Virus record (IMG/VR): IMGVR_UViG_3300037337_000110
Span: 1-63,953 of that record
Reading direction: 5' to 3' (one strand)
Origin: a virus
Length of the DNA stretch: 63,953 nt
In this document: in pieces, positions 8,401-59,919 of the stretch
Layout of the letters: the number at the start of each line of letters is the position of its first letter
How positions within the stretch are numbered: position 1 is the stretch's first letter
Position numbers and translations under genes: made by a program
Notes under the pieces: model-generated
Seen by the model: the letters and a program-made list of their open reading frames with translations, nothing else
The model's database searches: none
What the model was told of the DNA's origin: nothing

Positions 8401-9087
8401 ATGGCAGATTTCTTTGGTACCCAGTTCACACCCTCGGAGCTTGAGTTGCGAGCCCTGCGCGTGAACCCTGCGCACAGGGCTGATGAGGCAACACTGACAC
8501 GCCGACGCTGGTTCGATTACCGTCACATGAGCCCGGCTCTGGCCACCTACCACTACGCCCACTGCTACAAGGTTCAGACCCAGCGCTTCTATGCCATGTG
8601 CGTTGACGAGAAGAGGGCCGCAGACGCCCGTGCCTTCACGCCCGATGACATCTTCAACAGTCGGGACATGACTTCGATGTGGCTTGCTCGCAGCTTCGCT
8701 GATGAACACCGGTTGCCGTACCCGTTTGTTTTGGAGTTTGCGATGAAGCGATTTATTGCCAGAACGCAGCACCAGTTCCCACGCCCCAACCAGCTCTACG
8801 GCGAAGAGCTTGAAATAGACGTGCTGGCCGCCTGGAAAGAGCGCATGGGTTCTCAGATCACAATGGCGTTATCCCCGCGATTTCGCATGCACGGCTACAA
8901 GGGCGAGCTGGTGCAGGCAGAGCATGTCAAGTTCTTGGCCGACCAGATCAAGCAGCGCTCCGGCCCGAGGTTTCGACTGATTGCCCGCATGCTGAAGGAA
9001 GGTCTGATGACGCACCACATGGCAACGCTTCTGTTTGGACAGGGCGAAGCAGATGCCGCCGAGCGGTACCGGGAACAATTCATGTAA
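8401..9087 (+). CDS. hypothetical protein
   Basis: 228 residues, rich in Arg, His, Phe and Met, with no membrane segment or motif I recognise. It is preceded by an AT-rich stretch (8340-8400) with TATATAAG close to the ATG and has no strong ribosome-binding site. Ends exactly where the operator before the Hfq-like gene begins. Context between PhoH and the replication genes suggests an early function, no more. Confidence 0.65.
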   Translation: MADFFGTQFTPSELELRALRVNPAHRADEATLTRRRWFDYRHMSPALATYHYAHCYKVQTQRFYAMCVDEKRAADARAFTPDDIFNSRDMTSMWLARSFADEHRLPYPFVLEFAMKRFIARTQHQFPRPNQLYGEELEIDVLAAWKERMGSQITMALSPRFRMHGYKGELVQAEHVKFLADQIKQRSGPRFRLIARMLKEGLMTHHMATLLFGQGEADAAERYREQFM

Positions 9088-17637: not shown

Positions 17638-18273
17638 CTATAAGTCTGTCCTTAGCACACGAATTCGATTCATGAACCGCGACTGTGCGGCATCAAATGC
17701 GGGGGTCACCTCGATTGAGTCGTCTGGGATCACATTGGAGATGTGAACTGTGGAGTGGTCACCCTGATGGATGTTGGTCACATTGAGCTTGACCGTGACG
17801 TTGAAACTAGCGCCATCGGGAATTTTTCCATTCTTGGCGAAGTCTTGCAGTTGGCTGATGAATCCCTGAAAGCCTAGCGGCGCATAGGTCTGGGTGGCGT
17901 GCGCCACGGTGGTTCGAGTCTTCGCACCTCGCTCGTCCACCTTGATGCGGTCCAACGGAACATGCTCTACCAGGCGGTACACACTGCGGCGACCGCGAAC
18001 CTCTTGCTCAATCAGCTTCATTTCGATCAGCTTCTTCAAGGCGCGCTGCACAGTGTCCACAGAGGTGTCGAGGTGCCCGGCGATCGTCGACTGACTCGGG
18101 TACGAGGCCCCGGTTTCCAAATCGGTGTAGGCTTTCACCACACAGTAGACAGCCCAGGCGGAAAACCCCATCTCGGCAATCTTGTTGTCAATGATGGCCG
18201 ACCGCAAAATATGAAACCAGTGATGGCGCACGCTCAGCTCGTCCCAAATTTCTTTTTGTACTTGAGTGCTCAC
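17638..18273 (-). CDS. HTH replication-initiator-like protein
   Basis: 211 residues. Residues about 35-105 form a winged-helix/HTH_36-like domain (AWAVYCVVKAYTDLETG, SQSTIAGHLDTSVDTVQRAL, KKLIEMKLIEQE). HTH domains of this type occur in plasmid and phage replication proteins. The C-terminal half has no known domain. It lies directly beside the iterons and downstream of parA and the RHH gene on the same strand (4-nt overlap with the latter), so Rep is the preferred role; a transcriptional regulator of the island is the alternative. Confidence 0.6.
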   Translation of the reverse strand: MSTQVQKEIWDELSVRHHWFHILRSAIIDNKIAEMGFSAWAVYCVVKAYTDLETGASYPSQSTIAGHLDTSVDTVQRALKKLIEMKLIEQEVRGRRSVYRLVEHVPLDRIKVDERGAKTRTTVAHATQTYAPLGFQGFISQLQDFAKNGKIPDGASFNVTVKLNVTNIHQGDHSTVHISNVIPDDSIEVTPAFDAAQSRFMNRIRVLRTDL

Positions 18274-18692
18274 GCGCCCCCCTTTGCGTTGACTATGTTC
18301 ATGCGACGCTGCACTTCTGCTTCAATGCCAGCAAGTGCAATATCGTTCATGGACTCTCCGTAAGTGGTGCCGCCCAGCCACCTTAGCTTCTGGTAGACCT
18401 CACGAGGGAGTCGAAAATTCACCTGCTGCATAGGCACCACTTCAAGAACCATGCGCCAGGGCGCATTAGGGTCATCAGCTGACACCTGGCGTACATGCTT
18501 CATCGGCGGGCCGCGTCGGGTCTGAGTAGGTGCTGGTTGCGGCCCAGAAGTCCCCTCACCGGCCGCAATTGCGGCCGCTTGCTCCCGACCAGGCTGTTCC
18601 GTCCATTTCTGCAGCGCACTCAGACGCTCAAGTCTGTCTTGACTGCCTTGAACCTGCTGACGGCTTTTTAGCTCGGGGTTGCCATTCTTCAT
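18270..18692 (-). CDS. ribbon-helix-helix partition partner (ParG-like)
   Basis: 140 residues from an ATG at 18692 preceded by AAGGAG. An unstructured, Gln/Pro-rich N-terminus is followed by a C-terminal ribbon-helix-helix unit (about 88-130: QQVNFRLPREVYQKLRWLGG, then ESMNDIALAGIEAEVQRRM). Small type Ib ParA ATPases pair with RHH centromere-binding proteins encoded just downstream, which is the arrangement here (65-nt overlap with parA). Longer than classical ParG. Confidence 0.65.
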   Translation of the reverse strand: MKNGNPELKSRQQVQGSQDRLERLSALQKWTEQPGREQAAAIAAGEGTSGPQPAPTQTRRGPPMKHVRQVSADDPNAPWRMVLEVVPMQQVNFRLPREVYQKLRWLGGTTYGESMNDIALAGIEAEVQRRMNIVNAKGGA

Positions 18693-19353
18693 TAAAAATC
18701 TCCTTGTAGAAGTTCGCGATCTCGCGCGTGGCGTTTGCGTCTGCCGCCTTGCCGGTGAGCTCGACAACACTCAGACCGTCGCGCGCGGCCTTTCTGAAGG
18801 CGATGCGGTCTCGAATCTCGCCGGCCACAAAGTCAAACTCGTCGCGGTAGTCGTCCGTCAGAATTTTGCGCACTTCGTCGGTCTCGCGTACCGCAGGGTT
18901 GGGGTTGGAGCCGTTGATGATCACCTTGGCGGGCATCTCTTCGCCGGTCTGGTTGCGAATGGCGCGAACCATGTCCCCCATTGTCGAGAAGCTCCAAGTG
19001 TCAAACTGGCTCGGGCGCACCGGGATGACTAGCAGGTCACACACCACAATGGCTTGACGCATTTCGACCGAGTCGCGCCCACCGGCATCAACGATCACGA
19101 CCTCGAACTTGTCATGGAACTGACCGATGTCGTAGCCCACCTTGCCTGTCTTGGCCACGCAGACCAGATCGGGCGCGAGGTCCAGACCAGCCCGGTGCGC
19201 CCCCCGCGCGGCAGCCCAGGTGCTGGAGCTCTCTTGCTTGTCGGTGTCCACCAGCAGCACCTCTTTGCCTGCCAGCGCACACATGGCGGCCAGGTTCACC
19301 GCGATGGTGGTCTTGCCCACCCCGCCCTTTTCGTTTCCAACGACAACAATCAT
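18628..19353 (-). CDS. parA: ParA-type partition ATPase
   Basis: 241 residues from the ATG at 19353, which has GGAG upstream and starts MIVVVGNEKGGVGKTT, the deviant Walker A. Also seen: LLVDTDKQESSSTW (A' region), VVIVDAGGRDSVEMR (Walker B) and DLLVIPVRPSQFD. No N-terminal HTH, so it is the short type Ib form. It would segregate the plasmid form of the phage. The upstream open frame (to 19575) lies in the presumed centromere and was rejected. Confidence 0.92.
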   Translation of the reverse strand: MIVVVGNEKGGVGKTTIAVNLAAMCALAGKEVLLVDTDKQESSSTWAAARGAHRAGLDLAPDLVCVAKTGKVGYDIGQFHDKFEVVIVDAGGRDSVEMRQAIVVCDLLVIPVRPSQFDTWSFSTMGDMVRAIRNQTGEEMPAKVIINGSNPNPAVRETDEVRKILTDDYRDEFDFVAGEIRDRIAFRKAARDGLSVVELTGKAADANATREIANFYKEIFNEEWQPRAKKPSAGSRQSRQT

Positions 19354-19740
19354 TGCAGTGACTCCTAGCGTTGCTCCGCATGCGCGCGGTGCAGTCATAA
19401 ATATGAGTTCTGGCAGTGCCCTGCCCTCAATGCGCCGGATGATACCACCGCATTGTGTCTGTGCATTCTTTTCTGTCAACACACTTATGCCAGTCATTGC
19501 AGTCATTGCACCACAAGGGCCAGGATCACCGGTGTCGCTGCATCGACAGAAGTCAAAGCAATGAGTGGAGTGCAATTAGTCATTGCACTCATAGCACTAA
19601 TTGCACAAAAATGAGGCAGTGAAAGGAGTGCAGTCAGTGCGTTGACCTCAGTGACTGACGCGAGGGCATTGGTAGATTTCATGCCTGTCACTGCACCCGT
19701 TGTCAGTGGTGCAGTGGGAGCGGTCGGGGCAATGTGTGCA
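19354..19740. other. presumed partition centromere, repeat-rich
   Basis: No convincing gene. The region is full of TGCA-centred repeats: AGTCATTGCA at 19492, 19501 and 19578, and an 11-bp inverted repeat GTGCAATTAGT (19570-19580) / ACTAATTGCAC (19596-19606), plus further GTGCAGTCAGTG-like copies to about 19715. In type Ib loci the centromere lies upstream of parA, exactly where this is. It must also hold the parA promoter. Confidence 0.6.
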
Positions 19741-19747
19741 GACGTAA

Positions 19748-19771
19748 AAAAGCCACCTAAAGGTGGCTTTT
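19748..19771. terminator. bidirectional terminator
   Basis: AAAAGCCACC-TAAA-GGTGGCTTTT, a perfect 10-bp stem. It lies after the stop of the minus-strand repressor gene and would separate it from the centromere region. Confidence 0.75.
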
Positions 19772-19795
19772 GATGGGTCTTCATAGACACAAGTT

Positions 19796-20365
19796 TTATG
19801 GGTCTTTTGTCTCTTGTTCACCTTGCACGACCTGCTTCTCAACGCGCTTGGCTTTTTCCAGTTCGTCGCCCTTGGCAAGCGCGCTGCGTTTGGTCTTGCG
19901 CAGAATGCGCAGCAACGCCTCCTCTTCAATGGCGTCATCGCCAGTCGCTGAAACATACAGCTCACACATGGCCTCAAGCGCATTAGGGTGCTGGGACAGG
20001 TTCACGTCGCGCCCATTGACGGCAGCCCGCAGCGCCCGAATCAGCACCTCTTCATTCAAGGTCACCGGCGTTCGCTTGCTGACCGCCTCAAGTATTGAGG
20101 TCAGACTGAATCCGTTTTCTGCGTCAACACGCATCGCCAAGTACAGGGGGTCGATCTGAAGCACCTGGGCCGTCAGGGCCACCTTGTTCATCGGCAGCTT
20201 CATCATCCCGGATTCCAGCATCGAGATTACGTTGGGGGCCGAGTAGTTCAAGAGGGACGCGAGTTCCACGTTTTTATAGCCCATTCGAGACTTGTGCAGA
20301 GCGATCAGCTCACGCACAGAGGGAATTTTTTGATCACTAGACTTGTGGCTTTTTAGTGCGCTCAT
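19796..20365 (-). CDS. Cro/CI-type HTH repressor
   Basis: 189 residues with a helix-turn-helix at about 16-70 (VRELIALHKSRMGYKNVELA, SLLNYSAPNVISMLESG), typical of the XRE/Cro-CI family, and a helical C-terminal part with a charged tail; no autoprotease or TM segment seen. Excellent ribosome-binding site AGGAG. Transcribed divergently from the main gene block, the classical position for a lysogeny or copy-control regulator, and the best candidate for the protein that reads the AGTCA-N4-TGACT sites (inference). Confidence 0.8.
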   Translation of the reverse strand: MSALKSHKSSDQKIPSVRELIALHKSRMGYKNVELASLLNYSAPNVISMLESGMMKLPMNKVALTAQVLQIDPLYLAMRVDAENGFSLTSILEAVSKRTPVTLNEEVLIRALRAAVNGRDVNLSQHPNALEAMCELYVSATGDDAIEEEALLRILRKTKRSALAKGDELEKAKRVEKQVVQGEQETKDP

Positions 20366-20892: not shown

Positions 20893-23013
20893 ATGCAAAG
20901 CAAAGACATTTCTGTCATCCGCCAGTCGATCGGGAAGATCGTCTCCATGCTGACCAACCAGTCCATCGCGGTGACCCAGCGCGGCACCGATGCTTATGTG
21001 CAGTACGACGCCAAGGGTGTTGTCAAGCGGGTGAACATCCCCTACCTTGCCGATGACGCGACACCTGGGTTTATCGCCGCGGTGCAGGGCTTTCTTGATC
21101 ACGAGGTCGGCCACGTCTTGTTCACCGACCCCAAGGTCTTGCTTGCGGCCAAGAAGCAGCCCGGGCGCACGGCGAACCTGCACAACACCATTGAAGATGT
21201 CTACGTGGAGCGCAAGATGTCTGAGGCGTTTGCGGGCAGCGGCGGCAACCTCGATGCCCTGCGCTTCTTCTACTTGAACGATGTGGTGAAGAAGAAAGTG
21301 AACGAAGCGGTTGCCGCCGGCAACGAGACTGCCGCCTCGGGTTATGCGGCCGTGGTGAAGTTTCGTGCTTGGGGCGGTCAGCTCGCCGCGATCGACTTCT
21401 TGAAAAACAACCCCAAAATTGATGCGCTGGCAGCTGACATTGAAAGCAAGCTTGGGCCAGCGTTCATCAAAGCGATGGGTCAGGTCAAGAGCAGCAAGGA
21501 AGCACTCGACCTGGCCAAGCAAGCATACGACCTGCTGAAGCCAGCGCCCCCGCCAGCGCCCGTCGCACCCTCACCACCCAGCCCAGCGCCCCCACCAGTG
21601 CCAGCACCACCCGCAGACGATGAAGAAGAGCAGGACGAAGGTGCGGGCGACGGGCCTGCACCCACCGGCTCTACCGACCAGGAAGAGCAGGGCGAGGCGG
21701 ACCCCACGGTTCCCTCGGGCGCATCGGGCGACCAAGACGAAGAGCCGTCATCGGCAAGCGTGTCAGCTGCTGAAGACGACAGTGGCAAGCAGCGAGACGA
21801 TGACGACGAAAATGGGGAAACCGACATGGACTCAGACACCGCTGGCACCGGTGGTGAGTCGGACACTGATGTCGGTGAGAACCAGGAGCCCACCGTGCCC
21901 GAAGAGGCCAGCCCATCAGAAGGCGATGACGCGCCCCCCGATGATGAAGAGCAGCCTTCAGATGACCAAGAAGAGCAGGTCGGCCCGATGGTGACCCATG
22001 CCGGCGCGAAGTCTGGTGAGCATGCACCGGGCGACCAGGGCGATCTGAGCGAGGCGTTTGAGCAACCGATGGACTTCGACAGCGATGTTGCCAAGCAGCT
22101 TAGTCAGAATGCAAAAAAGGAACTCAGTCACTCGCAATATCGTGTCTTTTCTACTGACTGGGACACGCTCAAGTCAGCGCCCCTGGGGGACCATAAGGCA
22201 GTGGAGGTCATGGTTAAAGTCACTGACCACATGGTCGCGGGCATTCAGAAAAGCCTTGAGCGTGCGATGGCCGCAAAAGCGCGCAAGACCTGGAGCGGTG
22301 GTCAGCGTCGCGGTCGCATCAACCCCGGCTCCCTGTTTCGCACCGCTGTCGGCGATGACCGGGTGTTTCGCAAGCGCTACGAGACAGCGGCCAAGAACAC
22401 CGCCGTCACGTTGCTCGTTGACTGCTCCGGCTCGATGAGTGGTGAGCGTTTGGCACTTGCTGCACAGGCAGCTTACGCGCTGTCATCAACCCTTGAGCGC
22501 CTGAAGATCAAAAACGAAGTTCTTGGATTCACCACCGAAGGCTGCAAAGAGATGGCGCTGGCGATCAGCCGTGAGTCAAACGCTTACGATTTCTACAGTC
22601 GCTCTAGCTCGATCTACATGCCACTGTTCAAGGGCTTCGATGAGCGGCTGACGATTGATGCGAAGTTGCGTCTCGCCGCCCTGACGAACAAACCGATGTG
22701 GTTGCGCGAGAACGTCGATGGCGAGAGTGTGCAGATCGCTGCAAACAGGCTCAGGAAGCAGGTTGCCGAGCGTCACGTTTTGATCGTTCTGTCTGATGGC
22801 ATCCCAGCATGTGAGGGCACCAGCGCCGCGCTTTCCAACCACCTCAAGCGGGTCGTCTTGGAGCTCCCCTCGCAAGGTGTCGAGGTCGTCGGTATCGGCA
22901 TTCAGACCACCGATGTGGCCATGTTCTACCCCAGGAACTTGACGCTGAACAACATCGAATCGCTGCCGGTCACCGTGGTCAACGAGCTGTCCAGACTGCT
23001 GCTGGCTGTGTAA
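20893..23013 (+). CDS. cobT: CobT-like VWA protein with HExxH domain
   Basis: 706 residues. N-terminal domain (1-225) has FLDHEVGHVLFTD, an exact HExxH zinc-peptidase motif (about 73-77), and NTIEDVYVERK, whose acidic residues could complete the site. A long acidic, Pro/Glu/Asp/Ser-rich linker (about 216-395) follows. The C-terminal VWA domain (about 495-706) has the MIDAS motif LLVDCSGSMSG. Phage CobT/CobS-like pairs are known in large phages and are named after cobaltochelatase; a real cobalamin role is unproven. MoxR-AAA/VWA pairs usually act as chaperone or remodelling machines, and the partner ATPase is the next gene. Confidence 0.8.
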   Translation: MQSKDISVIRQSIGKIVSMLTNQSIAVTQRGTDAYVQYDAKGVVKRVNIPYLADDATPGFIAAVQGFLDHEVGHVLFTDPKVLLAAKKQPGRTANLHNTIEDVYVERKMSEAFAGSGGNLDALRFFYLNDVVKKKVNEAVAAGNETAASGYAAVVKFRAWGGQLAAIDFLKNNPKIDALAADIESKLGPAFIKAMGQVKSSKEALDLAKQAYDLLKPAPPPAPVAPSPPSPAPPPVPAPPADDEEEQDEGAGDGPAPTGSTDQEEQGEADPTVPSGASGDQDEEPSSASVSAAEDDSGKQRDDDDENGETDMDSDTAGTGGESDTDVGENQEPTVPEEASPSEGDDAPPDDEEQPSDDQEEQVGPMVTHAGAKSGEHAPGDQGDLSEAFEQPMDFDSDVAKQLSQNAKKELSHSQYRVFSTDWDTLKSAPLGDHKAVEVMVKVTDHMVAGIQKSLERAMAAKARKTWSGGQRRGRINPGSLFRTAVGDDRVFRKRYETAAKNTAVTLLVDCSGSMSGERLALAAQAAYALSSTLERLKIKNEVLGFTTEGCKEMALAISRESNAYDFYSRSSSIYMPLFKGFDERLTIDAKLRLAALTNKPMWLRENVDGESVQIAANRLRKQVAERHVLIVLSDGIPACEGTSAALSNHLKRVVLELPSQGVEVVGIGIQTTDVAMFYPRNLTLNNIESLPVTVVNELSRLLLAV

Positions 23014-23101: not shown

Positions 23102-24295
23102 ATGAATACTGCTGTCGCCACCCCTGTCGAAATCGAAGCCCGCATCACCTGTGCCATCTGTGGTGCAAAAGTGCATGCCATCAGCATCCACTTGCAGCGC
23201 GACCACGCTGAGCTGGAGATGACCCAGACCGACTACGAAGTCAAGTACCCAGGCCACCCCGTTTTTAGCGAAGTGGTGCTCAGCAAACTCGCGGAGAAAA
23301 AGCGTCTTGCTGCCGCAACTTCAGTCACCGCTGACTTTACATCAGACTTCGAGACCGAGCCCAAGGCGTTTCACGAACTCTTTGCACTGGGTAAGGTGCG
23401 ACCGGCGCTCAACGCGCGCGGCGCCCCCATCCCGATCACCACGGTCACCAAGACGGCGCACAAGAACATGGTGCCCGACGTGGACCCGAACTATGTCTTT
23501 AACCTGGATGTGCTCAAGACCTTGTTGATGGGCATCGAAATGAACATTCCTGTGTACCTGTGGGGTCACTCGGGTACTGGCAAGACCACGATCTATGAGC
23601 AGATCGGAGCCCGCACCGGTCGGCCCATGCTGCGTGTGCAGCACACGGCGAACATGGAAGAAGAGCATGTGCTGGGTGGGTGGCGTCTGCGCGACGGCAA
23701 GACTGTCTTTGATCTGGGGCCGCTCCCGATGGCCATGAAGTTCGGTTGGGTCTACCTGGCTGACGAATACGACTTCGGCCGCCCCGAGGTGCTCTCGCTG
23801 TACCAGCCGGTGCTTGAGGGCAAGCCGCTGGTGATCAAGGAGGCAGACCATGAAAACCGCGTGATTCGCCCACACCCCGGGTTTCGCTTTCTCGCCACCG
23901 GTAACACCAACGGTCAGGGCGACGAAACCGGCCTGTATGTGGGCACGACGATTCAAAACGCCGCGAACTACGAGCGTTTCGGCATTGTCGAAAAGATGCC
24001 CTTCATGGCGGAAGAGCTTGAGGTGGTGCTGGTCAGTCAGCAGGCGCAAATCCCCCTGCTGGATGCAAAAAAGCTGGTCGACTTCGCCAAGCGCATTCGG
24101 GCCGAGTTCGAGAGCTCCAAGATCAGCAACCCCATTTCGCCACGCTCGCTGATCTTCGCCGGTCGCTTGGGCATGGCTCGCTCGAACTACCTGTATGGGC
24201 TGGAGAAGTCGTACATCAACCGCCTGACCGAAGTTGACCGCGAGGCCGCGATGCAGCTGGCCAACCGCGTGTTTGGTGCCAGCAAGACCGCATAA
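23102..24295 (+). CDS. cobS: CobS/MoxR-like AAA+ ATPase with zinc finger
   Basis: 397 residues. N-terminal Cys2His2-like finger, CAICGAKVHAISIHLQRDH (residues about 17-35), then a MoxR/CobS-class AAA+ core: Walker A WGHSGTGKTT (about 157-166), NMEEEHVLGGW, Walker B FGWVYLADEYDFG, sensor 1 FLATGNTNG and sensor-2-like NPISPRSLIFAGR. It should form the ATPase ring that works with the VWA protein encoded upstream. The C-terminus reaches the ribosome-binding site of the sigma-like gene. Confidence 0.88.
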   Translation: MNTAVATPVEIEARITCAICGAKVHAISIHLQRDHAELEMTQTDYEVKYPGHPVFSEVVLSKLAEKKRLAAATSVTADFTSDFETEPKAFHELFALGKVRPALNARGAPIPITTVTKTAHKNMVPDVDPNYVFNLDVLKTLLMGIEMNIPVYLWGHSGTGKTTIYEQIGARTGRPMLRVQHTANMEEEHVLGGWRLRDGKTVFDLGPLPMAMKFGWVYLADEYDFGRPEVLSLYQPVLEGKPLVIKEADHENRVIRPHPGFRFLATGNTNGQGDETGLYVGTTIQNAANYERFGIVEKMPFMAEELEVVLVSQQAQIPLLDAKKLVDFAKRIRAEFESSKISNPISPRSLIFAGRLGMARSNYLYGLEKSYINRLTEVDREAAMQLANRVFGASKTA

Positions 24296-24304
24296 GGAGC
24301 TGAC

Positions 24305-25024
24305 ATGAGCGTCACTCACTCACCGGTCAACCCGCGCCCACAGGCGGAGAAGAACAAAAAATTCGCCAACGACGGCTCGTATGAGTCGGTTCAGGGGCAA
24401 ATCAAAAAGCTGGCTTTCATGTGCTTCGCCCGGGTCAACGCCCTGGGCCTGGGCATGACGTTCGAGGACGTGCTGCAGGAGATGAACCTGAGTTATGTCA
24501 ACGCCAAGAGACTGTGGAATCCCGAAGGCACAAGTCGCTTCAGCACCTACTTGCAAACCGCGTGCCTGAACAATTTCAACGCCCGCATCCAGAAGCCCGA
24601 GCGTGAGCGTCGCCTGTTTGGCATGGTCAACATGAGCGATATGCAGCGCAATGAACCAGGTGGCGACAATAGCGGTGAGCGCGACATCATGGAGGTTTTT
24701 GACGACGAGGACCAGGGCACCTTCTTTGTTCCGCTGAGTGACTTCAGCATGTTGGGCATGGGCGGCGAGACATCCCAGGCGTCCGAGCAGTCCCCGTTTC
24801 ACGCCAACCCCGAAGCACTGGTTGCGCACCGTCAAGATGTGCGCGAGGCGATGGCGAAAATGAGCCCCAACGCGCGTGCGGTGGTGATAGACATCTTGCG
24901 TGCGGCCCATGCCGGCGAGGACTTGCCCCGCTTCGGTGAGATCGCAGCGGTGCGTCAGATCAAGGCGCCCGAGTTGCGTCGCCTGCGCATCGAGCTGGCC
25001 AACACGTTCGGGGTGAAGATTTGA
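24305..25024 (+). CDS. phage sigma-70-like RNA polymerase sigma factor
   Basis: 239 residues. Residues about 25-105 match sigma region 2: FEDVLQEMNLSYVNAKRLW, NPEGTSRFSTYLQTACLNN, FNARIQKPERERR (compare the bacterial DLIQEGNxGLxxA...FDPxxGxxFSTYA pattern). Residues about 178-239 resemble region 4 (MAKMSPNARAVVIDILRA, then FGEIAAVRQIKAPELRRL). The intervening acidic part is unlike housekeeping factors. It would direct host RNA polymerase to a class of phage promoters. AAGGAG precedes the ATG; it follows the CobS-like gene by 9 nt. Confidence 0.7.
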   Translation: MSVTHSPVNPRPQAEKNKKFANDGSYESVQGQIKKLAFMCFARVNALGLGMTFEDVLQEMNLSYVNAKRLWNPEGTSRFSTYLQTACLNNFNARIQKPERERRLFGMVNMSDMQRNEPGGDNSGERDIMEVFDDEDQGTFFVPLSDFSMLGMGGETSQASEQSPFHANPEALVAHRQDVREAMAKMSPNARAVVIDILRAAHAGEDLPRFGEIAAVRQIKAPELRRLRIELANTFGVKI

Positions 25025-25542
25025 ATCGACCTCAATGTCACGGTTCGCCATGCGCCATCAGCGGCGACAGCGAGACCTGTCGAACCTGCCCGGCCCTGCG
25101 CTCTTGCGCCAGTCAGTCTCTTTTCTTTCTCGATCAACAGCTGTTGACCCCCTTGATTCAGCGAGAGCGCCAGCGCATCGCAATGGTCGAGCAGCGCTTT
25201 GTGCGCTCGCCAGATAGGGTCGAAGAGGGAGAGGGTGCCCAAGCACTCTCGAAGCCCGTAGCGACGATGGCACAGCGTCTGACCGACTCGGGCTGGTTCA
25301 AGTTCGCCAGGCGCGAGCTGGGGGCAGGGCGCAACCCTGCCAAGAAGGGCTGGCAGCAGGTTCTGTGCAGTGCGCTGATCACCGGTGGCGTCTCGCGCAA
25401 GACCTTGCAGCTGGCGTTTGTGCAGCAGCTCGATATGACGCCGGGGAGCGCGAAGGTGCAGGTCTCCAAGTCCGTTGCGGTGTTTCTGCAAGGGCGACTG
25501 CTGCTGGAGCTCAACGGCTACCTAAAACTTCATCGGGACTGA
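25021..25542 (+). CDS. Cys-cluster protein, unknown function
   Basis: 173 residues from TTG 25021, overlapping the sigma-like stop. A tight N-terminal cluster CHGSPC...C-RTC...C (residues 6-29) could bind zinc or an Fe-S centre. The C-terminal half is helical and basic, with KVQVSKSVAVFLQ possibly DNA-contacting. Co-transcribed with the sigma-like gene, so it may be a transcription accessory protein (inference). Confidence 0.55.
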   Translation: MNRPQCHGSPCAISGDSETCRTCPALRSCASQSLFFLDQQLLTPLIQRERQRIAMVEQRFVRSPDRVEEGEGAQALSKPVATMAQRLTDSGWFKFARRELGAGRNPAKKGWQQVLCSALITGGVSRKTLQLAFVQQLDMTPGSAKVQVSKSVAVFLQGRLLLELNGYLKLHRD

Positions 25543-25570: not shown

Positions 25571-28500
25571 ATGACAACCACAACACCAATTAACCCCCTG
25601 GGCGTGGCGCTCTCTGTACGCTCGGACTTCTCACTGGGTGAGAGTTCTTTTCAGATCGACCGCATCATCAAGCTGGCCAAAGAGCAGGGCTACAGTCATG
25701 TGGCTGTAGCTGACTTGATGACCGTCTCGGGCATCCCCACTTTCACCCAAAAATGTCACAAGGCGGGTCTGGTACCGATTGCCGGCGTGACGCTGCACAT
25801 CGTGGACAAGCCCACCGAAAAGCTGAAGGACAAGGTCAACAATCCCTATCGTCTCAAGTTGTACCCCAAGTCAGACCTGGGCATGCGCTCAATCTTCGCC
25901 GCACTTACCAAGTCGCTCACGGTGGAGAACTTTTACTACAACGCCCGACTCGGCCTGAGCGATGTCTGTGCCTTACAAGACGTGGTCGTCACCAGCGGCG
26001 ACCTTCGCAGTCTGTGGCACCACCCAGACGCAAAAAAGATTAGCGACCGTTTGACAGTCACCTTTGGCGATGACTACATGGTCGAGCTGGTGGCGCTGGA
26101 CACGCCCTTGTTTGACCGCACCAACACCCTGGCGCTGGAGCATCGCGGGATGCAGAAAACCATCATCACCCGCCCTGCCATGTATGCAAGCGCCGGTGAC
26201 GCGGACGCAACCGATGTGCTGCGCGCGATCACCACCAACACGCCTCTCAGTTCAGCTTGGCTTCCCCGACCCTTTCTGCGCGACCTCTACCTGATGTCGC
26301 CCGCTGGGATGGTCAAGCACTTCTCGGCAGTGGCCGCTCGCGTGCCCGGGGCGCCGATCAAGCAGTCTGTGATCAATATTGCAGAGATGGCATCGCGCTG
26401 TCGGTACGCCTTCAAGAAGCTGGCCCCCTCGATGCCCAAGATGGCAGAAAACGAGTTCATGGCTCTGGCAAAGGCATGCGCTGTTGGGTGGCAAGAGCGC
26501 TTCGCTCGCGAGGTATGGGGTCACAAGCCCGACGCAAACGAGCTGGCCACCACCTACAAGAAGCGTCTGCGCTTCGAGCTGGACGTGCTCAAAAAGATGA
26601 GCTTCTCAGGCTACTTTTTGCTGGTGCAAGACATCGTGCAATGGTCCAAGACTAACGGCATTCTAGTAGGTCCGGGTCGCGGTTCTGTGGGTGGGTCGCT
26701 GGTCGCCTACCTGATGGGCATCACGGACGTTGACCCGATTCGTTTCGACCTCTTGTTCGAGCGCTTCATCAATCCAGACCGCACTGACTTGCCCGATGCT
26801 GACCTGGACTTTATGAGCGCACGTCGTCACGAGGTCGTGAGCTACATCATTGAAAAGTATGGTCGCGAGAACGTCTCAGGAATTGTCAACTTCTCTACCC
26901 TGGGCGCAGCCAGCGCGCTGCGCGACACCGCGCGCATGCACGGTCTGCTGCCTTGGGAATATGCTTGTTCCAAGCAGATGGAAAAAGAGCACGGCGTCTC
27001 GCTGTCATTGACCGAGTCGGCCGATGCGGTGCCCGACATCGACAAGTTTAGAAACGACCACCCATCCATCTGGGACCACGCACTGCGTCTAGAAGGTGCC
27101 AACCGATCGCTCAGTCAGCACGCCGCCGGTGTGGTGGTCGCGGGCGAGCCGGTGCTGAACCGTGCAGTGGTGAGTGCCAGGGACGCAAAAGCCCTGCCGG
27201 TTGCGCAGTGGGATAAGTCCAAGGTCGAAGACTTCGGTTTGATCAAGATTGACGTGCTGGGTCTGAACACGCTGGACCTGATTGGGGTCGCGCTCAACTA
27301 CATCAAGGAGCGTCACTTCAAGACCATCGACATTCTCTCGCTGCCCCTGAATGACAAGCGCGTGCTAAAGGCTTTTGGTAATGGTGACACCACGGGGGTC
27401 TTTCAGTTCACCGGTGGCGGTATGAAGAGCTTGCTCAAGCAAATGGCGATGGGCGGGTCACTCACCTTCGACGACATCTGCGCCGCAACCGCGCTGTTTC
27501 GACCAGGGCCACTTGATGCCGGTCTATGTGACAGGTATGTGCAGGTCAAGCAGGGCGCCAGCAAGCCGTACTACGAGCATCCGGCGCTTGAAGAGTGTTT
27601 GGGTGATACTTTCGGCGTCATCACCTACCAAGAGCAGGTAATGGCCATCACGCGCAAGCTCTGCGGGTTCAGTCCGGGTGACGCCGACGGTGTGCGAAAG
27701 GCCATCGGTAAGAAGGACGCTGTGAAGATGGCGGAATATGCTGAGCGCTTTGTAGAGGGGGCTGTCAAAAGCGGCATGGAGAAGTCGCGCTCTGAGTTGC
27801 TGTGGGACACCATTCTGGGCTTCGCAGGCTACGCCTTCAACAAATCACATTCTGTGGAATATTCGCTGATCAGCTGGGTCACGATGTGGCTGAAGGTCTA
27901 CTACCCGGCCGAGTTCTATGCGGCTGCCATGACCGTCATCGACAACGATGACCAGCTCACCAACCTAGTTGGCGACGCACAGGGCAAAAAGCTCAAAGTC
28001 TTGCCACCCGATCTAAACAAAAGCTCCAACCGCATCGAGATCGAAGGTGAAGACGTGCTCTATGCCCCGTTTCAGGCGGTCAAGGGCATCAGCTCTAACG
28101 TCTCGGCAGCGCTGGTGAAGCTGCGTAAGGCAGTTGGGGGCAAGTTTAAGGTCGGCGCATCGGGCGAGGTTGTGGCGCTTGACGCCGAAGTGCAGAAAAA
28201 GGTTCTGGGTAGAAAAGTGATCACCTCGGCTGCCATCACTGGGCTTGAGCAGGTCGGTGCTTTTCACAGCGTCAATGGTGTGGGCCCCACCCCAACCCAC
28301 CCTGGCAGACTGAAGGCGCGCATCGAGCTCATGCCCGGCTTTACTTCGGACATGGTCAAGCCCGATCGCGAGCTTGCTGTCGACGGCTTGGCTTCGATCA
28401 AGATCACCAACATGGTGCGCGAGATGGCGCAGTGCGAGGGCTGTTCACTCAAAGGCGCACCGCACCCGACGCCGCGCATGGGCTCCAAGCCCAAGTTCAT

Positions 28501-28945
28501 GGTGGTGTTTGACACCCCGAGCTGGAAGGAAGAGCGCGCTGGCAAGATGCTGGAGGGTGATGCTGCCGAGGTGGTCAAGGCCGCCCTGCGCGGGGTCGGG
28601 CTCAACGCAGCTAACGGCTACTACACCGCGCTTGTGAAGTCGGTCAAGCCCAAGGAACAAAAGCAACTGAGCAACGAGCAGATCAACGGCTGCTCCAAGT
28701 TTCTCACCCAAGAGATCGACATCCTGAAACCGCCCATCATCATAGCAATGGGCTCAAATGCGGTGCGCTGGTTTAGCCCAGGCACCAAGGGCACTCCCAG
28801 CGACCTGGCTGGGAAAGTGATCTACCGTGCGGACCTGGACGCATCGGTGATCTTTGGGATAAACCCAGGCGCACTCTTTCATGACCCTAGCAAGGTCAAG
28901 CTGATTGAGGCGGCATTCGACAAACTTGGCCAACTTCTGGTCTGA
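25571..28945 (+). CDS. dnaE: DNA polymerase III alpha with C-terminal UDG-like domain
   Basis: 1124 residues. PHP domain at 10-200, but the metal-binding His of HLHxHS are lost (ALSVRSDFS), so it is probably inactive. Polymerase core: GPGRGSVGGSLVAYLMGITD and INPDRTDLPDADLDF, with catalytic Asp in PDADLDF, later FRPGPLDAG, VITYQEQVM and GYAFNKSHSVEYS. From about residue 950 the usual OB/tau-binding part is replaced by a family-4 UDG-like domain (CEGCSLKGAP, MVVFDTPSWKEERAGKMLEG, YYTALVKSVKP, NGCSKFL, IIIAMGSNAVRWF). The glycosylase motif and one cluster Cys are altered. It is the replicative polymerase; proofreading likely comes from the gene at 49641. Confidence 0.92.
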   Translation: MTTTTPINPLGVALSVRSDFSLGESSFQIDRIIKLAKEQGYSHVAVADLMTVSGIPTFTQKCHKAGLVPIAGVTLHIVDKPTEKLKDKVNNPYRLKLYPKSDLGMRSIFAALTKSLTVENFYYNARLGLSDVCALQDVVVTSGDLRSLWHHPDAKKISDRLTVTFGDDYMVELVALDTPLFDRTNTLALEHRGMQKTIITRPAMYASAGDADATDVLRAITTNTPLSSAWLPRPFLRDLYLMSPAGMVKHFSAVAARVPGAPIKQSVINIAEMASRCRYAFKKLAPSMPKMAENEFMALAKACAVGWQERFAREVWGHKPDANELATTYKKRLRFELDVLKKMSFSGYFLLVQDIVQWSKTNGILVGPGRGSVGGSLVAYLMGITDVDPIRFDLLFERFINPDRTDLPDADLDFMSARRHEVVSYIIEKYGRENVSGIVNFSTLGAASALRDTARMHGLLPWEYACSKQMEKEHGVSLSLTESADAVPDIDKFRNDHPSIWDHALRLEGANRSLSQHAAGVVVAGEPVLNRAVVSARDAKALPVAQWDKSKVEDFGLIKIDVLGLNTLDLIGVALNYIKERHFKTIDILSLPLNDKRVLKAFGNGDTTGVFQFTGGGMKSLLKQMAMGGSLTFDDICAATALFRPGPLDAGLCDRYVQVKQGASKPYYEHPALEECLGDTFGVITYQEQVMAITRKLCGFSPGDADGVRKAIGKKDAVKMAEYAERFVEGAVKSGMEKSRSELLWDTILGFAGYAFNKSHSVEYSLISWVTMWLKVYYPAEFYAAAMTVIDNDDQLTNLVGDAQGKKLKVLPPDLNKSSNRIEIEGEDVLYAPFQAVKGISSNVSAALVKLRKAVGGKFKVGASGEVVALDAEVQKKVLGRKVITSAAITGLEQVGAFHSVNGVGPTPTHPGRLKARIELMPGFTSDMVKPDRELAVDGLASIKITNMVREMAQCEGCSLKGAPHPTPRMGSKPKFMVVFDTPSWKEERAGKMLEGDAAEVVKAALRGVGLNAANGYYTALVKSVKPKEQKQLSNEQINGCSKFLTQEIDILKPPIIIAMGSNAVRWFSPGTKGTPSDLAGKVIYRADLDASVIFGINPGALFHDPSKVKLIEAAFDKLGQLLV

Positions 28946-28953
28946 AAGAAAAC

Positions 28954-29454
28954 ATGGCAACCGAAGACACCACTTTGATCAAATTCATCGACTCTGAACA
29001 GGTGAAGCAAGACCTCATCTTTGACATCGCCGACATCAATGGGGCGATGCAAAAGCATGCGGCCATGTACGTTCACTATGCCGGCGTGAGCGTGCGCGCT
29101 CGCACCCAGTGGGACGTGTGGAAGCAACGTCTGGAAATTCTGGAGGGGCAGCTCGACGGCATCTACCGCACTGCGCTGAAGGAAGAAAACCCCAAGACAA
29201 CCGAATCGCAGATTCGCTCGGCTGTGGTCAACGACGAGAAGTGGAAGCTCTATTCCAGCCGCGTGATCGGCTCCAATACCCAGTTCCGTCTGGCTGAAGG
29301 TGTCGAGCGCAGCTTTGAGCACCGCAAGGACATGCTGCTGCAAGTGGCTCGCAACTTGGCCCGGGAGCAAGAGGGGCCGATGCGCGTGATGGCAAATCAG
29401 AACGCTGGCGATGCGCGTCAGCGGCTGCTTGATTCAATGTCGAAGGGGGCGTGA
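28954..29454 (+). CDS. helical protein, possible UvsY-like recombination mediator
   Basis: 166 residues, mostly charged helix (AGVSVRARTQWDVWKQRLEI, VERSFEHRKDMLLQVARNL), with no enzyme motif. It lies between the polymerase and the SSB gene, near RecA. Proteins of this size and composition at this place in phage genomes are often linked to the UvsY mediator that loads recombinase on SSB-coated DNA. The match is by pattern and position only. Confidence 0.5.
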   Translation: MATEDTTLIKFIDSEQVKQDLIFDIADINGAMQKHAAMYVHYAGVSVRARTQWDVWKQRLEILEGQLDGIYRTALKEENPKTTESQIRSAVVNDEKWKLYSSRVIGSNTQFRLAEGVERSFEHRKDMLLQVARNLAREQEGPMRVMANQNAGDARQRLLDSMSKGA

Positions 29455-51007: not shown

Positions 51008-51442
51008 GGTTATGTTGACAGCCGACAAGAACTACCCCGGGCGTTGACTGTGTCTCGGATGTCTGTGTCTTTCTTCAGCGTCTTTGGTAAATCGCCCTCC
51101 GAAGTGCCTGAACTGGGACTGCGAGTTTTACGAAAACTCGCAGCGTCCGAATCGCCCGCCTGACCATGTTGGTCGTCGCCTGAACTTCTCAGGTATTCGC
51201 ACACGCGCGCCCACGGGCGCGCTTTCAATTTAGCGAACGCAGCCGGGTTGATGAATCTACGTCCAAGCCGGGGTGATCACAATAAATTTATCGGGGAAAC
51301 AAAAAGAGCCCGATCAGTTGGGAAAAATAAATTCAAGCGTCATTAGCCGCGCCGAGATTCAGGTTTCACAATTGAATTTGTCGGGTTAATACCGACACCG
51401 ACACCGACAGTACCCACTTTTTTTTATTACGAGGTTTCTCAA
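51008..51442 (+). ncRNA. gene-poor region with strong hairpins, possible structured RNA
   Basis: 435 bp without a convincing gene. It holds a perfect 11-bp stem CTGCGAGTTTT-ACG-AAAACTCGCAG (51119-51143), a GC-rich terminator-like hairpin at 51205-51225, and near the end a triple ACCGAC direct repeat (about 51393-51410) before a T-rich leader. It could encode a small RNA (attractive given the Hfq-like protein) or serve as a long leader for the gene at 51443. Confidence 0.35.
51205..51225 (+). terminator. GC-rich terminator hairpin
   Basis: GCGCGCC-CACG-GGCGCGC followed by TTT. Confidence 0.6.
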
Positions 51443-56107: not shown

Positions 56108-56146
56108 AACGCAGCCTGCTCGGGCATACCCACGCCTAAAACGCTA

Positions 56147-56160
56147 AGTCATCATTGAAT
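56147..56160. promoter_or_regulatory. operator overlapping a leader repeat
   Basis: AGTCA-TCAT-TGAAT; the right half merges into the TTGAATTC of the start-associated repeat. Confidence 0.5.
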
Positions 56161-56181
56161 TCTCGCAACAAGCAACCGAAA
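56155..56181 (+). repeat. start-associated leader repeat, copy A
   Basis: TTGAATTCTCGCAACA, then AGCAACCGAAA, ending 6 bp before ATG 56188. In frame with the gene, so a TTG start at 56155 would add the residues NSRNKQPKNS. Confidence 0.65.
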
Positions 56182-57295: not shown

Positions 57296-57326
57296 GGACC
57301 CGTTTTTCTGAACCCAGCTCGCCGTA

Positions 57327-57340
57327 AATCACCGGTGACA
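57327..57340. promoter_or_regulatory. operator-like dyad
   Basis: AATCA-CCGG-TGACA, directly before leader-repeat copy B. Confidence 0.5.
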
Positions 57341-57341
57341 C

Positions 57342-57367
57342 TTGAATTCTCGCAACACAAACCGAAA
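57342..57367 (+). repeat. start-associated leader repeat, copy B
   Basis: TTGAATTCTCGCAACAC then AAACCGAAA, 7 bp before ATG 57375. In frame with the gene. Confidence 0.75.
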
Positions 57368-57557: not shown

Positions 57558-57580
57558 GTGCCAACAGACCAGCCCAACAC

Positions 57581-57606
57581 TTGAATTCTCGCAACACAAA
57601 CCGAAA
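57581..57606 (+). repeat. start-associated leader repeat, copy C
   Basis: Same 26-bp sequence as copy B, 7 bp before ATG 57614 and in frame with it. Confidence 0.75.
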
Positions 57607-57955: not shown

Positions 57956-58170
57956 CGCGCGCGGCGATGCACATCGTGATTCTGCCGGCCAAAGATTATT
58001 ACAACAACAGGGGCGTCAGCGGCGTTGTGTTGCTGGCCAACGGTCAGCCGTACCACTACCCGGGTCACAGCGGCCGCCGCCAAGCTGAAGCTGCCCGAGA
58101 CCGAGTCGACGCCGCCATGAAGCTGTCCGAGACCGAGTCAACTCTGCCGCAACCCGCACCTGACACTTGA
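57952..58170 (+). CDS. hypothetical small protein
   Basis: 72 residues from GTG 57952 with GGGAGG upstream. Basic middle (HYPGHSGRRQAEAARDRVDA). Unknown. Confidence 0.5.
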   Translation: MTRAAMHIVILPAKDYYNNRGVSGVVLLANGQPYHYPGHSGRRQAEAARDRVDAAMKLSETESTLPQPAPDT

Positions 58171-58193
58171 ATTCTCGCAACACAAAACCGAAA
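58167..58193 (+). repeat. start-associated leader repeat, copy D
   Basis: TTGAATTCTCGCAACAC then AAAACCGAAA, preceded by TGACAC. 7 bp before ATG 58201; out of frame with the RadC-like gene. Confidence 0.75.
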
Positions 58194-58200
58194 GCAGACC

Positions 58201-58710
58201 ATGAAGGCCAACAGCAACGACACCATCGAATACACCGTAACGTCACTCAGCACACAGACCTACGCGCCGGCCGAGATCGTGACCCAGGCTCTAGCTTTTC
58301 TTGAAAGTCGGCTGCGCACGCCGGGTACACTGCTGTCTTCGCCCGATCTGGTGAAGAAGTACCTGGCGCTGCACAACGGTCAGTTCGAGGACCAGCACAT
58401 CGAGCGCTTTAGCGTGATGTGGCTCGACTCGCAGAACCGCCTGATCGCCGTCGACACTCTCTTCACCGGCACGCTCACCCAGACATCCGTCTATCCGCGC
58501 GAGGTGCTGCGCGCCGCACTCAAACACAATGCCAGCTCTGCGGTTCTGTGTCACAACCACCCCAGTGGGAGCGTGCAGCCGTCGCGTGCCGATGAGCACC
58601 TGACCCAGACCATCAAGGCGGCGCTAATCTTGATCGACGTTCGCACGCTCGACCACGTCATCACCAGTGGTTCCAAGACAGCAAGCATGGCGGAAATGGG
58701 TCTTGTCTGA
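58201..58710 (+). CDS. radC: RadC-like JAB/MPN protein
   Basis: 169 residues. [40 protein letters not shown] and [14 protein letters not shown] with D-x-I-TSG: the JAMM-type metal motif E-xn-HxHPSG-x10-D of RadC. The N-terminal HhH found in chromosomal RadC is missing, as in plasmid and phage copies. Role unproven (despite the name, not a DNA repair enzyme by firm evidence). Confidence 0.88.
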
Positions 58711-58716
58711 GCCGTA

Positions 58717-58730
58717 AGTCACGGGTGACA
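58717..58730. promoter_or_regulatory. operator-like dyad
   Basis: AGTCA-CGGG-TGACA, 29 bp before ATG 58760. Confidence 0.55.
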
Positions 58731-58759
58731 CTAAACCATTGAAACAACAGAAAGACGCC

Positions 58760-59250: not shown

Positions 59251-59301
59251 TTCAAGGCTGGGTTTTGCACAACCCAGCGCGCCAACAACCCACCCTGACA
59301 C

Positions 59302-59328
59302 TTGAATTCTCGCAACACCAAACCGAAA
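59302..59328 (+). repeat. start-associated leader repeat, copy E
   Basis: TTGAATTCTCGCAACAC then CAAACCGAAA, preceded by TGACAC, 6 bp before ATG 59335. In frame with the gene. Confidence 0.75.
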
Positions 59329-59856: not shown

Positions 59857-59895
59857 GCCCAGCCCCACCCCAGCGCCGCAATCCCAACCTGACAC

Positions 59896-59919
59896 TTGAA
59901 TTCTCCCAACACAACGAAG
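59896..59919 (+). repeat. start-associated leader repeat, copy F
   Basis: TTGAATTCTCCCAACAC then AACGAAG, a diverged copy preceded by TGACAC, 8 bp before ATG 59928. Confidence 0.65.

Follow-up and report, generated by a model that had tools for sequence, protein, structure and literature searches.

A divergent sigma-70-family factor and a rigidly spaced promoter-like class in SSU5-like phage-plasmids

The window (the whole stretch of viral DNA analysed here, 63,953 nucleotides) represents part of an SSU5-like phage-plasmid and encodes SIG, a divergent phage member of the known sigma-70 family. SIG lies within a conserved replication operon ordered cobT-cobS-SIG-CYS-dnaE(UDG), in which CYS is a Cys4/winged-helix protein. 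A class of promoter-like sites, class B, recurs in the window and in several related genomes with the consensus GCC-N13-NANNNT, mostly GACAmT in the hexamer, and with fixed spacing. The operon with its universal Cys4/winged-helix partner, together with this rigid GCC-N13 promoter class, looks new.

Sequence and structure of SIG

The SIG open reading frame is intact, from an ATG at 24305 to a stop at 25024, with AAGGAG five nucleotides ahead of the start codon and a gap of nine bases after cobS. Its features are as follows.

24305..25024, + strand: SIG, sigma-70-family factor, 239 aa (family profile, Pfam, TIGR02937, AF2 and overlay)
24380..24616, + strand: SIG region 2, aa 26-104 (AF2 helices, overlay on sigma-A domain 2)
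24638..24802, + strand: disordered linker, aa 112-166 (pLDDT < 50)
24809..25009, + strand: C-terminal helical bundle, aa 169-235, a region-4-like HTH (AF2, VIA-align)

Searched alone, the window sequence reached PF04542 (Sigma70_r2) at E=0.01 (16 bits, cut-off 24) and TIGR02937 at E=3.6e-6, also under its cut-off. Single-protein searches with SIG gave no match by tblastn in phages and none in viral_contigs or GTDB contigs; a single-protein search of GTDB contigs with CobS gave no match either. Relatives were reached via synteny, using cobS as the query instead of the sigma gene. They comprise IMG/VR contigs, Stenotrophomonas and Rhizobium phages, and Acinetobacter, Methylobacterium and Cupriavidus plasmids, and a SIG-homologous protein occupies the identical slot in them. 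A family profile of 18 syntenic homologues reached E=2.3e-11 against SigA chains of the PDB; PF04542 was matched by 18/18 members (best 1.1e-8). These results bear out the first-pass annotation, which had called the product sigma-70-like and proposed a profile search for sigma region 2/4: the family profile matches, whereas the lone window sequence stays below cut-off. That SIG is a sigma-70-family protein, its similarity being more than chance, is highly probable.

Several relatives already carry the database name 'RNA polymerase sigma-70 factor' (RHEph10 gp045, B1VFA_132 and RHph_X66 of Rhizobium phages and WP_000252084.1 of the Acinetobacter plasmid pABTJ2), so SIG adds a divergent branch to a protein family already recognised. 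These proteins share with SIG the slot cobS-SIG-CYS-dnaE and the profile family, the Rhizobium phage proteins at 16-19% identity. The Rhizobium proteins have an insert before the last helices, and class B was not found in their genomes.

An AlphaFold2 (AF2) model of SIG was built with 16 sequences. The region 2 helices (aa 26-47, 53-70 and 79-104) are modelled at pLDDT about 90-96. In a VIA-align superposition this region fits Taq sigma-A domain 2 with an rmsd of 1.7 Å over 70 residues (Z 8.7-8.9). The overlay targets, 3ugo, 3ugp and 4ki2, are sigma-A domain 2 with -10 ssDNA. Two motifs mark the region, FEDVLQEMNLSYVNAKRLW at aa 53-71 and FSTYLQTACLNN at aa 79-90; the core-binding DxxQEMN occupies aa 55-61 and the -10 melting FSTY aa 79-82. 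DxxQE and FSTY are retained in most of the window clade, and D55 is invariant among members. The region 2 fold, the -10 recognition motifs and the predicted order region 2, linker, HTH are common to SIG and SigA/RpoD. Unlike SigA/RpoD, SIG is without region 1 and without a recognisable region 3, and the Trp dyad and the equivalents of Gln437/Thr440 are replaced. From the alignment and the known residues of sigma70, T85, A86, N89 and N92 presumably stand in for the Trp dyad and the region 2.4 Gln/Thr, and we take N89 and N92 to be the counterparts of sigma70 Gln437/Thr440, which read base -12.

The C-terminal bundle (aa 169-235), also modelled with confidence, is aligned by VIA-align with domain 4 of full sigma chains, following region 2 in the expected order. 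Searches with just the last 75 residues gave no sigma match in the PDB or Pfam, and a sequence match to region 4 was dropped. The region-4-like C-terminus proposed earlier is therefore partly supported, as a predicted helical, HTH-like bundle in the right order; order and fold, rather than sequence, suggest a region 4.

The replication operon and its Cys4/winged-helix protein

Gene content places the window among the SSU5-like elements, with a cobT-cobS-dnaE/UDG-ssb-exo-recA block alongside partition and replication genes. It encodes ParA, a replication initiator, CobT, CobS, DnaE-UDG, a gp32-like SSB, an exonuclease, RecA and nucleotide metabolism; no virion genes were found in it. The gene order agrees with the earlier description of a sigma gene behind a CobT/CobS pair and ahead of a Cys-cluster protein.

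20893..23013, + strand: CobT-like VWA protein (PF11775 E=4e-35, PHROG 1576)
23102..24295, + strand: CobS-like MoxR/AAA+ ATPase (PF07728 E=2.5e-18, PHROG 249)
25021..25542, + strand: CYS, Cys4 cluster protein with a C-terminal winged helix (alignments, AF2, winged-helix matches)
25571..28945, + strand: DNA polymerase III alpha with a C-terminal uracil-DNA-glycosylase-like domain (PF07733, PF17657, PF03167)

The UDG-like domain at the end of DnaE-UDG contains a CxxC, and in pABTJ2 and an Aeromonas plasmid (loci L025 and L027) the DnaE and UDG halves are separated by an inserted endonuclease-type gene. In most relatives the dnaE-ssb interval holds a conserved 166-aa protein (28954-29454 in the window; PHROG 1069), and the replication-initiator-like, ParA-like and HTH genes at 17638-20365 (- strand) form a plasmid maintenance module.

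We surveyed 32 loci with cobS and dnaE. CobT/CobS and CYS are present in 32/32, and SIG in 24/32 (missing in 8/32), always directly after cobS and in one copy per genome. Genome-wide searches with the family profile or PF04542 found no sigma in the complete SSU5, nickie, hairong and Aeromonas plasmid genomes. On the CobS tree, SIG presence and absence takes 6 changes, at least 3 of them forced by well-supported branches, and one SIG-less locus (L010) falls within the window's own clade.

The TTG start of CYS overlaps the SIG stop (TTGA). Its cysteines C6, C20, C23 and C29, spaced C-x13-C-x2-C-x5-C, are invariant in 21 sequences, and its AF2 model has a pLDDT of 90. The C-terminal winged helix finds generic winged-helix structures with Z below 8, and Foldseek returns the MotA activation domain as a weak match (rank 5, E=0.74). 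Against the PDB the CYS profile places WhiB4 (E=0.015) and WhiB (E=0.13) at the top; an hhalign comparison with WhiB gives a probability of 10% and P=0.003, beating 30 column shuffles that preserve the Cys columns. Four cysteines with C-x2-C-x5-C are shared with WhiB-like proteins. CYS differs from them in its extra winged helix and its origin in proteobacterial phages, and the G[VI]WGG motif, universal among Wbl proteins according to a review (PMC6282962), is not present in the aligned CYS members. With that motif missing and the best local score against PF02467 at 13.8 bits, under the 23.6 cut-off, the assignment of CYS as a WhiB was dropped. CYS is likely a Cys4-cluster transcription factor. 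In SSU5 it is reduced to a 67-aa Cys module without the winged helix, and a separate SSU5 protein, SSU5_087, has a winged-helix end like that of CYS.

Class-B sites and repressor-type operators

Class B was first seen as CTTGAATTCTCGCAACA repeats 25-38 nt before window start codons, with homologous forms in relatives G004 and G005 and in a Cupriavidus plasmid. A wider alignment shows a -10-like hexamer preceded by GCC at a distance of exactly 16 bp. When cores in G005 were defined without GCC, 16/19 had GCC at 16 bp upstream and other offsets had 0-1. The best-conserved hexamer bases in G005 are A-11 and T-7, as in sigma-70-type -10 elements, and class B is nearly zero on the antisense strand. 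Some G005 GCC boxes sit within hairpin-like sequence; the exact spacing speaks against a terminator artefact there, though single sites may still be such. The sites stand upstream of right-arm small genes, and class-B-like sites also lie ahead of cobT in G005 and, in the Cupriavidus plasmid, ahead of both cobT and cobS. Sites in the window are listed below.

51350..51390, + strand: class-B promoter-like site, GCC-N13-CACAAT
56133..56173, + strand: class-B promoter-like site, -10 CATCAT, gene start 56188
57320..57360, + strand: class-B promoter-like site, GCC-N13-GACACT, gene start 57375
57559..57599, + strand: class-B promoter-like site, gene start 57614
58145..58185, + strand: class-B promoter-like site, gene start 58201
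58710..58750, + strand: class-B promoter-like site, GCC-N13-GACACT, gene start 58760
59280..59320, + strand: class-B promoter-like site, gene start 59335
59874..59914, + strand: class-B promoter-like site, gene start 59928

Wide EM searches drifted to operators (in G004, Cupriavidus, RHEph10, Aeromonas, G001 and others), so spacing-controlled counts were used instead, with GCC-N13-NANNNT compared against all other spacings. The N13 spacing gave 19 against 6.1 in the window, 35 against 9.2 in G005, 26 against 6.5 in the Cupriavidus plasmid and 22 against 6.5 in G006; the excess is also clear in G004 and G007. Smaller excesses occur in the SIG-less genomes SSU5 (15 against 6.8) and nickie (15 against 7.6) and, weakly, G001 (10 against 4.5). 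By the same counts there is no excess in SIG-bearing ANB28, RHEph10 and B1VFA or in SIG-less hairong and the Aeromonas plasmid, and the count in SIG-bearing pABTJ2 falls within its control range. Class B in SIG-less genomes and SIG in genomes without class B together mean that the two are not strictly coupled.

The class-B -10 hexamer departs from TATAAT in SIG-bearing genomes and is nearer TATAAT in SIG-less SSU5 and nickie. C at -10 occurs at 64/133 sites in SIG-bearing and 6/45 in SIG-less genomes (Fisher 3e-5, ignoring relatedness), and T at -12 at 17/133 and 18/45, respectively (Fisher 2e-4, ignoring relatedness); the difference is confounded by relatedness because sites within one genome are not independent. 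The departure from TATAAT fits the replaced region 2.4 residues of SIG (N89, N92).

A palindrome, TAAGTCAGnnCTGACTTA in G004 with variants elsewhere, occurs at about 20-33 sites in many genomes, often overlapping TATAAT. Such sites were tried as promoters and dropped: shared by SIG-bearing and SIG-less genomes and not recovered in nickie or hairong, they are read as operators of the repressor type. A genome-wide repressor regulon is seen in most of these phage-plasmids, and the divergent HTH gene at 19796-20365 (- strand) is a candidate for the repressor. Operators in the window have GTAAGTCA-type half sites, at 9084, 15432, 29480, 34224, 39233, 42721, 45342 and other positions.

A proposed role for SIG and the alternatives

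The following scheme, which covers polymerase binding by SIG, its action at class B, box reading by CYS and the timing, is inferred. SIG would be made from the replication operon cobT-cobS-SIG-CYS-dnaE as the phage-plasmid leaves the plasmid state. Its region 2 would dock on the host RNA polymerase core and open the -10 element, with the C-terminal HTH probably sitting where sigma region 4 does. SIG may in this way help the host polymerase to use class-B promoters, which would serve small genes of the right arm and also the cobT operon of some relatives. Because SIG-less relatives have the GCC box (at about -28) too, the box is probably read by a conserved factor other than SIG; the adjacent CYS is the best candidate because it is always present. 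The placement of the box relative to -10, like that of the MotA box, suggests an activator-type reader. As box and SIG each occur in genomes that lack the other, it is only moderately likely that SIG acts at class-B promoters, and we put the chances of the whole proposal, SIG with host polymerase at class B and the GCC read by another factor, perhaps CYS, at about even. We regard as doubtful a more specific version, in which SIG reads the -10 while CYS reads GCC and makes the bridge to sigma or polymerase, both proteins feed back on the replication operon that encodes them, and SIG-less lineages fall back on host sigma70 as their -10s drift to TATAAT.

Alternatively, host sigma70 could drive class B together with a phage-encoded activator at GCC, either CYS or a different winged-helix protein, in the style of T4 middle promoters, leaving SIG for another promoter set or for tuning of the -10. 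The class-B sites of SSU5 and nickie, with their near-TATAAT hexamers, fit this reading, as do the constant presence of CYS and the 13 bp between GCC and -10, near the spacing of the MotA box, which lies 12 +/- 1 bp from -10 and is centred at -30 (PMC2988021). However, the -10s of the window clade (GACACT) are poor for host sigma70 and numerous in several SIG-bearing genomes, and in SSU5, where CYS has no winged helix, it could not be the reader, a role that would have to fall to SSU5_087. We consider this alternative credible, though less probable than SIG-assisted use of class B. The likeness to T4 MotA/AsiA extends to a box about 12-13 bp from -10 that replaces -35 and to a small phage DNA-binding factor; the box itself differs, most members have a phage-supplied sigma, and CYS is unrelated to MotA by sequence.

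The first-pass annotation had envisaged a late or middle promoter class, and a T4 gp55-like role in virion gene expression would be in keeping with the use of such factors by many phages (general knowledge; PMC2988020) and with a gene beside the replicative polymerase, whose expression could follow replication. Upstream regions of the relatives' capsid genes argue against it: they often carry repressor operators, to which G004 adds a sigma70-type TTGCAG-17-TAGAAT, and inspection showed class B to be absent there and revealed no further consensus, operators aside, that the regions before the relatives' capsid or terminase genes have in common. Moreover, terL abuts upstream coding sequence in these genomes, and SIG-less G001 carries the same virion genes. 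The late-promoter reading is not supported, and we think a late sigma improbable; the second promoter consensus that had been sought exists as class B, before right-arm small genes and not before the relatives' capsid genes. Like T4 gp55/gp33, SIG is a small phage sigma with a region 2 and a possible dependence on a separate phage partner. It differs in having its own C-terminal HTH and no virion-gene link that we found, and class B has a fixed GCC box where T4 late promoters are without an upstream element (PMC2988020). Similarly improbable is a non-initiating role for a sigma-derived protein, as a decoy, an anti-sigma-like protein or a replication-coupling factor. It would suit the divergent sequence, the lost Trp dyad, the unmatched C-terminal domain and the patchy presence, but not the retained DxxQE and FSTY, the invariant D55 or a fold match to the DNA-bound domain 2. 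Least probable is the earlier suggestion that RNA polymerase or SIG is a remodelling target of the AAA+/VWA machine CobT/CobS, for which adjacency is the one argument. CobS homologues are found in hundreds of other phages, and the pair persists in the eight SIG-less loci and in four complete genomes without any sigma found, so CobT/CobS do not need SIG and the idea is unsupported.

A limited search of open-access literature found no description of the conserved operon, the CYS partner or the GCC-N13 class, nor, in the literature searched, of how these phage-plasmids switch transcription when they exit the plasmid state. With SIG, its conserved partner and a defined promoter class in hand, that switch becomes directly testable. 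The natural presence or absence of SIG in otherwise alike genomes also allows promoter evolution to be compared between lineages that have a dedicated factor and lineages that do not. Klebsiella, Escherichia, Acinetobacter and Aeromonas commonly harbour phage-plasmids with this CobS.

Proteins of about 280 aa in SSU5 (NC_018843, 76655-77497) and nickie (NC_042091, 83841-84677) have a C-terminus that matches the CYS winged helix (E ~3e-4) and a class-B-like site upstream of their genes; they are possibly a paralogous regulator.
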